A stretch of 64,000 bases of DNA from Gilliamella sp. wkB7 (GTDB taxonomy: Bacteria > Pseudomonadota > Gammaproteobacteria > Enterobacterales > Orbaceae), in the NCBI RefSeq assembly GCF_001693435.1, contig NZ_CM004509.1, positions 2,356,001 to 2,420,000 on the forward strand, written 5' to 3'. Position 1 is the stretch's first letter. Each line of letters starts with the position of its first letter. Below the pieces are notes generated by a model. That model was not told where the DNA came from. It searched no databases and saw only the letters and a list, made by a program, of their open reading frames with translations. Positions 23,723-44,522 of the stretch are shown here, piece after piece. The position numbers and the translations under genes are program-made.

Positions 23723-24748
23723 ATGTCTTATATGCGAAATTCTAAATTAAGTATACCAATCATAATATCGATTATATTACATTTAATGTTAATTATTATG
23801 CTTGGTTATCAAGCTATAAAAAATATAGATGGTATCAACTATGGTAAAGAGACTGGAAATAGTATTGATGCTATTATGATCGATCCTTCTGTTATGACAG
23901 ATCAATATCAACGGCAATTAAAAACGAAAGAAAGCCAACAGCAAGCTGATAAAAAAAGAGAGCAACAGTTAGTCGATCAAGCTAAAGAATTGCAAGAAAA
24001 ACAATTAGCTGAACAACAACACTTAAAGGATTTAACTAAAGAACGTATAAAACTTGCTGAGCAATTGAAAAAGCAAGAAGAAGAAAGGATTGCAGCAGAG
24101 AAAGCGGCAGCAGAGAAAGCAGCGGCGGAAAAGGCAGCAGCGGAAAAAGCAGCAGCGGCGGAAAAGGCAGCGGCAGAGAAAGCTGCCGCGGAAAAAGCGG
24201 CAGCAGAGAAAGCAGCGGCGGAAAAAGCGGCAGCAGAGAAAGCAGCGGCGGAAAAGGCAGCGGCAGAGAAAGCTGCCGCGGAAAAAGCGGCAGCAGAGAA
24301 AGCAGCGGCGGAAAAGGCAGCAGCAGAAAAGAAAGCCGCAGAGATAAAAGCTAAACAAAAGGCAGAACAGGCTAAGAAAGATAAAGCTATCAATGATCTA
24401 TTAGGTGGTCTGACTTCTGGCGCTCCAAATTCTCCAAGTGATCAAAGTGGAGCCGCTGCAAGTCGTAAAGGTTCATCCGATGATGAACTAGCTAAATATA
24501 AAGCGTTAGTGACAAATGCTATAAGCAATAAATTTATAAATCCAGCTAATGTTTATAGTGGTAAAAGTTGTGTTTTACAAATTCAAATAGCACCAGATGG
24601 GTTATTACTTAATGTAACTTCTAGTGGAGGCGATGAAGCTTTATGTCGTGAAGCGGTTGCTGCTACTAAACTTGCAACCATTCCAAAACCAGCGAGTGGT
24701 TTATATGATGAAGTAAAAAATATGACAGTTGAATTCCAACCAAAATAG
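23723..24748 (+). CDS. tolA: Tol-Pal system protein TolA
   Basis: Protein of 341 residues in three domains: an N-terminal anchor helix (about 10-30), a long helical periplasmic domain (about 70-230) and the C-terminal domain III that binds TolB and Pal (from about 255, with two cysteines in GKSCVLQ and ALCREA). The helical domain is an almost pure array of AAAEK repeats, encoded by GC-rich DNA unlike the rest of the window. tolB and pal, which follow in most gammaproteobacteria, are not here; hslVU comes next. Confidence 0.95.
   Translation: MSYMRNSKLSIPIIISIILHLMLIIMLGYQAIKNIDGINYGKETGNSIDAIMIDPSVMTDQYQRQLKTKESQQQADKKREQQLVDQAKELQEKQLAEQQHLKDLTKERIKLAEQLKKQEEERIAAEKAAAEKAAAEKAAAEKAAAAEKAAAEKAAAEKAAAEKAAAEKAAAEKAAAEKAAAEKAAAEKAAAEKAAAEKAAAEKKAAEIKAKQKAEQAKKDKAINDLLGGLTSGAPNSPSDQSGAAASRKGSSDDELAKYKALVTNAISNKFINPANVYSGKSCVLQIQIAPDGLLLNVTSSGGDEALCREAVAATKLATIPKPASGLYDEVKNMTVEFQPK
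24090..24335 (+). repeat. Tandem repeat array inside tolA
   Basis: 15-bp units coding AAAEK are arranged in 30-bp variants, and a 90-bp block (starting 24161) recurs at 24251. One unit carries an extra alanine codon (GCG near 24156). The array is GC-rich and lacks stops in all six frames, so overlapping open frames there are artefacts. Confidence 0.9.
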
Positions 24749-41059: not shown

Positions 41060-41096
41060 AAAAAGTTTCAGGTTAACTATACGTTTTAGTATAAAA
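41060..41096 (+). repeat. Interspersed 37-bp repeat, copy C
   Basis: AAAAAGTTTCAG, GTTAAC and TATACGTTTTAGTATAAAA. The last eight codons and the stop of the minus-strand MFS gene lie inside this repeat. Confidence 0.85.
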
Positions 41097-42251
41097 TAGC
41101 CAACAAATGATACCTATCAATCCCAATATTGTTCCTGATACCACAATGGCTATCCAGCCATAATGACTAAATAAATAGGTTGAACCAACAGAGCCAAGCA
41201 TCCCACCAATAAAATAACATACCATGTAACCTGTATTCACTCTGCTACGAGCTTCAGGCCTTATTTGGTAAATTGCACTCATATTTGAAACATGTGTAAC
41301 TTGTACTGAAAAATCTAATATAACCACACCTAGAATTAATGCAATGATTGAGTATTGCGCCAATGAAAGTGGTAACCACGATAACAGCAATAAACCTAAG
41401 CCTATTGTGGTAGCAAGCCAACCTTTACCTTTGTCTGATAATTTACCTACTATAGGCGAACCCAATGCACCCGCCGCTCCAGCAATTCCGAATAGACCAA
41501 TAATGAAATCTGAGTAGTGATAAGGATCATTACTTAATAAAAAAGCAAGTGGTGTCCATAATAAAGAAAACAATGCAAATGATATAACTGCTAACAATGA
41601 ACGAATTCTAAGGATAGGTTCTTGTTTGTATAATGAGCCAATTGACCATAACAGTTGAAAGTAATTGATATTAATTGTATTACGGTAAGTAGGCAGTGAA
41701 ATCCAAAGTAATAGGGTAACAATACCCATGATACTTGTGGCAATCCAATATACGTAATGCCAATCGGCAATAGTTGAAATAGCGCCAGCAAAGGTTCTAC
41801 CCAGTAAAATGCCAAGTAACATTCCACTCATTAAAATGCCAACGATTTTACCGCGGTGTTCCGGTTTGGATAGGGTAGCTGCAAAAGGAATTAAAACTTG
41901 TGCAACGGTTGAAAATAGCCCCGTCATGGATGTACCTATTATTAGCATCCATAAATTTTTTGATAAAGTACTGACGATGAGCCCACAAGTGGATAATACC
42001 ATTAAAATAATAATTAAGTGTTTTCGCTCAAATTTATCACCAAGAGGTGTGATAAAAAGTAAACCAACAGCATAACTAAACTGTGCTGCCATTATGATTG
42101 AACCAGCATGCTCAACTGCAATATTCAAATCATGAGTAATTGAATGTAGTAGTGGTTGAGCATAATAATTGCTGGCAATAGTTACACCAATAGCAAATGC
42201 CATTAAAAAAACTAACCAGCTGGATAAACCTTGAGATTGTTTGCTTTGCAT
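41073..42251 (-). CDS. MFS family exporter
   Basis: Twelve-helix major facilitator of 392 residues. NYYAQPLL in helix 1 and LGDKFERKHLI in the first loop place it with the YnfM/YgaY-like DHA1 group of efflux proteins. The substrate is unknown. The C-terminal FYTKTYS and stop come from copy C of the 37-bp repeat, so the natural end may have been replaced. It is a single gene. Confidence 0.85.
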   Translation of the reverse strand: MQSKQSQGLSSWLVFLMAFAIGVTIASNYYAQPLLHSITHDLNIAVEHAGSIIMAAQFSYAVGLLFITPLGDKFERKHLIIILMVLSTCGLIVSTLSKNLWMLIIGTSMTGLFSTVAQVLIPFAATLSKPEHRGKIVGILMSGMLLGILLGRTFAGAISTIADWHYVYWIATSIMGIVTLLLWISLPTYRNTININYFQLLWSIGSLYKQEPILRIRSLLAVISFALFSLLWTPLAFLLSNDPYHYSDFIIGLFGIAGAAGALGSPIVGKLSDKGKGWLATTIGLGLLLLSWLPLSLAQYSIIALILGVVILDFSVQVTHVSNMSAIYQIRPEARSRVNTGYMVCYFIGGMLGSVGSTYLFSHYGWIAIVVSGTILGLIGIICWLFYTKTYS

Positions 42252-42324: not shown

Positions 42325-42420
42325 TTAAGCAGATTGTTTTAATAAGTTATAAACGGGTGTAGCGAGTCCTATTTTTGTATTATCTGATTCTAGTTTATAC
42401 CAATAGCCAGAAGATTCATC
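42325..42420 (-). pseudogene. mutY: Conserved last 32 codons of mutY, cut off by an in-frame UGA
   Basis: Directly after the mutY TGA the same frame continues DESSGYWYKL, then KIGLATPVYNLLKQ, ending at a TAA (42325-42327). This aligns with the end of E. coli MutY (DEGNALWYNL, then GLAAPVERLLQQL) with no frameshift. Reading through the UGA would give 348 residues, like E. coli MutY (350). Confidence 0.85.
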
Positions 42421-43371
42421 TCAACATTTTGTGAAATTGGTAATTACACAATAAATTGGAACAATATTTAAATGAAAATGGCTAAATGTATGTCTGAACG
42501 AGTTTAATGGTTTAGGTTCAGTTGATACTATTCCTTTTTTTTCTAACCACTCTTTTAGTTCTTGCTCGCTTGAAAATTCTGGTAGGCAATATAACCCTCC
42601 CCAAATACCTTTTGGTGGTCTTTTTTCTAACCAAATAGCGCGATTATATTCTAGCATTAAAAAATAAGCGGTTTTTTCTGGCTTGGCTGTTTTAGGTTTT
42701 GGTGTTGGATATTTTTGCCAACTTGCTGTTTTATAAGCAATACAATCTTTATGCAATGGGCACTGTGTGCACTTAGGCTTTGTACGAGTACAAACCATTG
42801 CCCCAATATCCATCATTGCTTGATTAAATTTAGCAATATTTTGTTCAGGCGTAACTTGTTCACTTAATTGCCAAAGTTTATTTTCGATTGTTTTATTTCC
42901 AGGCCATCCATCAACAGCAAAATATCGAGTTAAAACACGCTTTACATTACCATCTAAAATTGGGTAATGTTGATTTTGTGAAAGCGATAAAATTGCTCCA
43001 GCTGTCGAACGACCAATTCCTGGTAAAGCCACTACATCATCAAATTTGGTTGGAAATAAACCATTAAACTTATTATTAATAACTTGTGCTGCTTTGTGTA
43101 AATTACGAGCACGAGCATAATAACCAAGCCCTGTCCAAAGATGTAATACATCATCAATAGGTGCTTTTGCTAAATCCGTTATTTTTGGAAATAGCTTAAT
43201 GAAATTATTAAAGTAGGGGATAACAGTTGCAACTTGTGTCTGTTGCAACATTACTTCTGATAACCACACATGATAAGGTGTTTTCTCAATCTGCCATGGT
43301 AGCGTTTTTCTGCCGTACTGTTCATACCATTTTAATACAGCCTTTGCAAAGGGGGGCATTGTTACAGGCAT
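42421..43371 (-). CDS. mutY: Adenine DNA glycosylase MutY, ending early at UGA
   Basis: Base-excision glycosylase that removes A opposite 8-oxoguanine. Catalytic E39 (SEVMLQQTQ), helix-hairpin-helix [11 protein letters not shown] (116-126), catalytic D140 (ILDGN) and the 4Fe-4S cysteines C194, C201, C204 and C210 are all intact. The C-terminal Nudix-like domain that recognises 8-oxoG is cut at residue 316 by TGA, 32 codons before the conserved end. The start overlaps the pheA stop by one base (TAATG); M5 is an alternative. Upstream pheA on the same strand is an unusual neighbour; yggX does not follow. Confidence 0.92.
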
Positions 43372-44522
43372 TACATTACAGCAGTAATTGTGTCATTTGG
43401 ATAACAACCCAATACTTTTGTGTATAAGGTAATTTTTGCTAACTGCTTTAATGCGTTTTGCATTTCTTCAGAATAAAGATTACCTTGTAGATCAATGTAA
43501 AACATCTCTTCCCATGGTGTACCATGAATTGGACGAGATTCAAGTTTAGTCATGACAATATTATGATTACGTAACACAGAAAGAGCATCAACAAGTGCAC
43601 CTGCTTGCTGGCCTGTTTTCATCAATATTGTGGTTTTAGCAGGGATTTGATCAGATACATGAACTGGCTTACGAGATAACACTATAAATCGGGTGATATT
43701 CTCTTTTTGATTAGCAAAACTATGTTCAAGAACTTGTAATCCATAAAGTTCACCGCCATCTTTATTACCCATAGCAGCAAAATTAGGCTTATTTGACTTA
43801 GCAACCATGTCCATTGCTGATGAAGTACTGTCACAAAAGACAATCTTCCAATGCGGATATCCCTCCAAAAAGTGAGAACATTGTTGGAATGGTTGTGGAT
43901 GACTATATACGGTGTCAATTTGATCTAATTGAGTATTTGGAAGCGCTAAAATACAGTGATCAATCGGTAGTGATAACTCGCCAATAATATGCAAATTCGT
44001 TTTTTGTAGTAAATCATAAATTTCGTTAATGGATCCGGAACTTGAGTTTTCAATTGGTACAACACCATAATCAACAACGCCTTTCTCTATTTGTTCGAAG
44101 ATATCTTTAAAAGTCGCACAACTTGACTCAATAATTTGCTCTAAATGGGCGCTAGCATAGCGTCGAGCTGCCGAATGAGAATAAGATCCTATGGGTCCTA
44201 GAAAAGCAATTTTTGCGGTCGTAATAGCACCATGATTTATTTTTTCTTGTAGAATTTTTTGTTGTAAAAGTACAGAATCTTCGATAATTATTTGATATAA
44301 ATGTTTGATAAAAATATCATCAAGATGATATTTTTTACCGTGTTCAATTAGTGATTTAATTAATGAACGTTCGCGTTCCATGTCGCGTACTGGTATATTT
44401 GCCTTAATTTTAGTATTAATTACTTGTCTCGAAAGCTCACGACGTTTAGCAATAAGTTCTAAAAGAGTTTGATCAAGTTCGTTAATTTTATCTCGTAAAG
44501 GTAATAAGTGATCTACTTTCAT
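43371..44522 (-). CDS. pheA: Bifunctional chorismate mutase/prephenate dehydratase
   Basis: P-protein of 383 residues for phenylalanine synthesis. The AroQ chorismate mutase domain covers about 1-90 ([20 protein letters not shown]), prephenate dehydratase about 103-280 ([34 protein letters not shown]) and the ACT domain with [15 protein letters not shown] binds phenylalanine for feedback. It lies downstream of raiA as in E. coli, but no pheL leader peptide is seen, so attenuation control seems absent. Confidence 0.97.

Follow-up and report, generated by a model that had tools for sequence, protein, structure and literature searches.

A probable recent nonsense mutation shortens mutY in Gilliamella sp. 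wkB7

We investigated an in-frame TGA codon in mutY, the gene for the A/G-specific adenine glycosylase MutY, within a 64,000-nucleotide stretch of the genome of Gilliamella sp. wkB7 (RefSeq assembly GCF_001693435.1, contig NZ_CM004509.1, positions 2,356,001 to 2,420,000, forward strand; hereafter the window), an organism that we take to be an Orbaceae symbiont of the bee gut. Comparison with other genomes of the genus suggests that a nonsense mutation, recent and probably at strain level, created this codon in an otherwise ordinary Gilliamella mutY. The locus comprises the following features, given in window coordinates.

43371-42325, minus strand: mutY with the read-through frame, 348 codons, TAA at 42325-42327
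42424..43371, minus strand: mutY as terminated, encoding a 316-residue A/G-specific adenine glycosylase (NF008132 and Pfam matches)
42421..42423, minus strand: in-frame TGA, codon 317 of 348 (a sense codon at the 29 other genus loci read)
42325..42420, minus strand: frame continuing past the TGA, 31 conserved codons plus TAA (genus alignment, modelled strand and helix)
43371..44522, minus strand: pheA (chorismate mutase/prephenate dehydratase), upstream of mutY (NCBIfam NF007910, 609.4 bits, cut-off 577)
41073..42251, minus strand: MFS transporter gene, downstream of mutY, open, 392 codons (profile match and coordinates)

mutY and pheA overlap by one base (43371), with which the former starts and the latter ends. 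Even in its 316-residue form, MutY scores 552.4 bits against the NCBIfam equivalog NF008132 (cut-off 427), covering profile positions 6-315 of 351, with the catalytic HhH-GPD domain of Pfam at residues 38-171. The iron-sulfur (FeS) cluster cysteines C194, C201, C204 and C210 all lie upstream of the stop, as does the H-x-FSH motif (HTFSH, residues 294-298) that contacts 8-oxoguanine (8-oxoG). These cysteines, H294, F296 and H298 are invariant among 37 aligned MutYs and S297 is found in at least 90% of them; the window protein has every one. The NUDIX_4 domain, by contrast, is incomplete: it matches at residues 236-308 over profile positions 2-77 of 113, whereas in an intact database twin, described below, it spans positions 2-113 of 113, so that 36 of 113 positions, about the last third, are untranslated. 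Thus, the window protein shares with the MutY/PRK10880 family of A/G-specific adenine glycosylases the catalytic core, the FeS cysteines and H-x-FSH, and differs from it in lacking those last 36 NUDIX_4 positions. The initial annotation described a loss from the 8-oxoG-recognising domain, which holds insofar as the last 32 residues are gone, but the contact motif itself is kept and it is the structural end of the domain that is lost.

Beyond the TGA the frame stays open to the TAA at 42325, and the read-through product of 348 residues falls within the 344-349 residues of Gilliamella relatives in the database, in agreement with the initial annotation; comparison across the genus likewise bears out its view that a single base substitution, and not a frameshift, divides the full protein from the shortened one. 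Across 29 genus relatives, the tail reaches a mean identity of 79%, close to the 81% of the body, and six tail residues (W324, Y325, G335, L336, P339, L343) are invariant among the 37 aligned sequences. An alignment of the tail without gaps, which the initial annotation reported for E. coli MutY, stands within Gilliamella but fails against Yersinia, Dickeya and Orbus, where there is a one-residue length difference between WY and GLA. In the modelled full-length protein, the tail contains a strand (322-326) and a helix (338-347). Changes private to the window number 2 in the 99 bases of stop and tail, one of them the stop itself, against 6 in the 948 bases of the body, counts too small to speak for or against relaxed selection on the tail. 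On the strength of these alignments, the sequence after the TGA reads as coding sequence.

As the initial annotation had proposed, the codon was compared in relatives, and it is a sense codon at each of the 29 other genus loci: Trp at 10, Leu at 14 and Phe at 5, with no stop. Codon 317 could be read in 30 of 35 genus genomes, including that of the window itself; the remaining four full-length genus matches have no stop flagged, and one further genome (G031) has only a fragment. Across the genus, 33 of the 34 other genomes carry a near full-length mutY match and none ends at the position of the window's stop. One of these, G026, was flagged with a single TAA, yet its alignment is open through residue 346 and the TAA appears to be the gene's own end. 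The genus relatives thus do not end here with an unconserved tail, the pattern that the initial annotation had named, for sister strains, as a refutation.

The close relatives G014, G011 and G006 (90-97% protein identity) have TGG at codon 317, one transition away from TGA; because they carry this codon, the stop is most simply derived from Trp by a single G to A transition. G004 (98% identity, locus L115) has TTG, which represents a separate change at codon 317 and, beside the TGG of the other close relatives, implies that the position tolerates several large hydrophobic residues.

Among database records in a species-level collection, the nearest to the window MutY are two uncultured Gilliamella metagenome-assembled genomes at 97-98% identity, followed by named Gilliamella species at 79-81%. 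A protein database, clustered at 90% identity and searched with 8000 candidates scored each time, holds a 348-residue protein identical to the read-through MutY at 347 positions, with Trp at 317; when the 316-residue form was used as the query (E <=1e-190), this intact protein was the sole match listed. It has Ala216, Lys254 and the tail residue Thr332, which in a five-genome comparison are otherwise confined to the window, and two contigs encode it, of which the longer measures 21,561 bases and neither is the 2.9-Mb contig of the window. Because an otherwise identical intact protein exists on other contigs, the stop is likely young. We found no report of this Gilliamella mutY allele in the open-licence literature searched.

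Taken together, a stop private to one of the compared genomes, sense codons in the relatives and a near-identical intact protein make a recent nonsense mutation, one of the options raised by the initial annotation, the explanation that we consider likely. TGG at codon 317 would have become TGA through one transition, ribosomes would terminate there normally via release factor 2 (RF2), and the resulting 316-residue MutY would retain the catalytic core, the FeS cluster ligands and H-x-FSH while lacking the last beta strand and the C-terminal helix of the NUDIX-like domain. The shortened domain would presumably be unstable, leaving 8-oxoG:A repair lost or weak, and the lineage, if it persisted, would accumulate G:C to T:A changes. 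The 316-residue protein is thus probably inactive or weak, and the event is most likely an ordinary loss-of-function mutation that involves no new decoding mechanism. The ranking of this and the competing explanations is a matter of judgement, not of calculation.

Several observations weigh against this explanation. The contigs of the intact twin may stem from a different strain, a metagenome or a second assembly of this isolate, and the twin could also reflect a gene caller that reads TGA as Trp (code 4). Mean AlphaFold2 confidence for the truncated MutY stayed much the same (89.7 against 88.3), with the largest drop at residues 251-260, from 86 to 66, and the strand at 245-250 was no longer called. 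In the absence of a clear collapse of the predicted fold, we regard this model of the terminated protein as uninformative. Finally, the window branch shows no excess of G:C to T:A changes, a result that would fit an active protein or a base-call error equally well. These changes account for 17 of 404 window-private substitutions, as compared with 33 of 514 in G004 (Fisher p 0.19) and 88 of 1619 in G011 (p 0.38), and, with G014 added, over the half of the window that it covers, for 3 of 158 in the window, 6 of 84 in G004 and 3 of 77 in G014. The mutator phenotype suggested by the initial annotation accordingly finds no support as a long-standing state. A young mutator would leave no such footprint, so the missing excess also fits a young event, and any loss of MutY would be recent.

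The same lack of a mutational footprint could mean that the TGA is a sequencing or assembly error and that the strain truly has a sense codon, as would a single substitution private to one record and the otherwise identical intact protein, possibly another assembly of the same isolate. We consider this unlikely, given that the sequence looks clean. The assembly is a single contig of 2.9 Mb, 99.99% complete, and the change is a substitution rather than a homopolymer indel. We compared 220 ORFs (open reading frames) of at least 100 residues, from the syntenic 267 kb of G011, to this genome and matched 212, of which 193 did so in full and without interruption. Ten of the other 19 contain an in-frame stop; in nine of them it falls solely in the opening 28 or closing 18 codons of the sister ORF (in one at both ends), which leaves mutY with the sole mid-gene in-frame stop among the 212; the nine partial matches have no in-frame stop, one of them (174 residues) being split across two frames. 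A finer list, built from ORFs of at least 80 residues in three relatives, contains further short or antisense ORFs with stops. Because mutY alone has a mid-gene stop, low overall sequence quality and a region in decay are both disfavoured. The search for other genes conserved past a UGA, a check named in the initial annotation, accordingly returned none mid-gene besides mutY among these sister ORFs. A second gene that seemed to be interrupted by TGA, matching a 1186-residue sister ORF with the stop at codon 28, was rejected as an over-extended start, with an ATG directly after the stop.

A real stop could also be harmless if the 316-residue MutY kept enough 8-oxoG:A repair through its core and the H-x-FSH loop. 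Such a tolerated truncation is consistent with the position of the FeS cysteines and of H-x-FSH ahead of the stop (PMC11078426 describes the latter as the 8-oxoG motif of MutY), with the lack of a G:C to T:A excess and with the model of the shortened protein, which is still predicted with confidence. Conservation in the 29 relatives, however, is about equal in tail and body, the six invariant tail residues hold across all 37 sequences, and 0 of 33 near full-length genus matches end at this position; moreover, the published C-terminal truncations of MutY/MUTYH that we found lose function unless they lie within a disordered end. This alternative therefore appears doubtful, and more so than an error in the sequence.

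Readings in which the stop is partly bypassed fare worse. Basal misreading of UGA by tRNA-Trp might yield some full-length MutY with the ancestral Trp, and hence partial repair. A G follows the TGA, and the relatives with TGG have Trp at this position; on the other hand, the single tRNA-Trp gene (anticodon CCA) looks wild type by comparison with E. coli, keeping the D-arm G that is altered in the classic UGA suppressor, and the stop is found in 0 of 29 relatives, so that nothing indicates selection for it. According to PMC11126739, TGA leaks more than the other stops in E. coli, Trp is what is usually inserted there and a following G raises read-through; its reporters at position 105 gave values of 0.7-6%, varying with the stop, and it cites as much as 14% TGA read-through under one condition. 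Some wild-type MutY from read-through is thus plausible, with nothing to show that it is selected, but a leaky stop as the explanation of the locus is very improbable. Hardly more probable is a 'soft' loss allele, in which UGA leakiness, with the ancestral Trp inserted, would set the amount of working MutY, and the rate of oxidative mutation in a gut symbiont lineage would shift reversibly with growth conditions.

Recoding, which the initial annotation had also listed, finds no support, since UGA behaves as a normal terminator here. The genome encodes RF2 (520.7 bits against a cut-off of 370); in its gene prfB (locus L209, G000:C1:1745000-1746800) the sequence GGGGGTATCTTTGAC occurs and the frame remains open after a shift of one base, an arrangement like the programmed frameshift site of E. 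coli RF2. In 264 kb, 202 ORFs have a conserved C-terminal end, and of these 152 end in TAA, 29 in TAG and 21 in TGA. The tRNA-Trp gene is the only one among 52 Rfam tRNA hits read with ARAGORN, and none of the 52 has the anticodon UCA, in an Rfam search that scored 150 of 226 first-look candidates, such that a very odd tRNA could escape it. The best score for selenocysteine tRNA (tRNA-Sec) was 41.6 bits, below the gathering threshold of 47, with the two best places being tRNA-Gly and tRNA-Ser, and that for SelB was 196.2 bits, below the cut-off of 242.25. We therefore rejected selenocysteine insertion (both components below their cut-offs), reassignment of UGA to Trp as in code 4 (RF2 kept, TGA used as a terminator, tRNA-Trp with CCA) and programmed read-through (the stop shared by none of the 29 other loci).

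A recent nonsense mutation in mutY has known parallels. PMC5458099 describes the Elizabethkingia anophelis Wisconsin outbreak strain, in which the C-terminal end of MutY was likewise lost in one recent lineage while relatives remained intact, and the branch preceding the event likewise had a normal-looking spectrum. There, however, a mobile element insertion removes 57 residues, whereas here a point mutation removes 32, and 87% of later substitutions were G/C to T/A, whereas later mutations are invisible here from one genome. In-frame stops in bacteria as short-lived polymorphisms are discussed in PMC7918605, which describes a similar situation, a single nonsense substitution in a conserved gene with nearly unchanged flanks and short persistence. 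That work centres on stops common to at least two species, whereas the mutY stop is known from one genome, and it holds that in-frame stops tend to be short-lived, while arguing that many are also read through and under selection. The mechanism itself adds nothing new. If the mutation is real, this bee-gut symbiont would be an isolate with a naturally defective mutY, suited to asking whether mutators emerge and last in such communities; it would also test, in nature, whether MutY needs the final strand and helix of its NUDIX domain.

Two further observations concern other genes. In tolA (TolA C-terminal domain; window 23723-24748, plus strand), the last 127-130 residues alone align well to G004, G011 and G006, and the divergence of the rest is probably ordinary variation of a low-complexity stalk. 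In addition, a 733-residue ORF of this genome matches G011 at about 2190408-2192605 (in L222) as two pieces in different frame places, which makes it possible that the sister genome holds a frameshift in the counterpart of that ORF.
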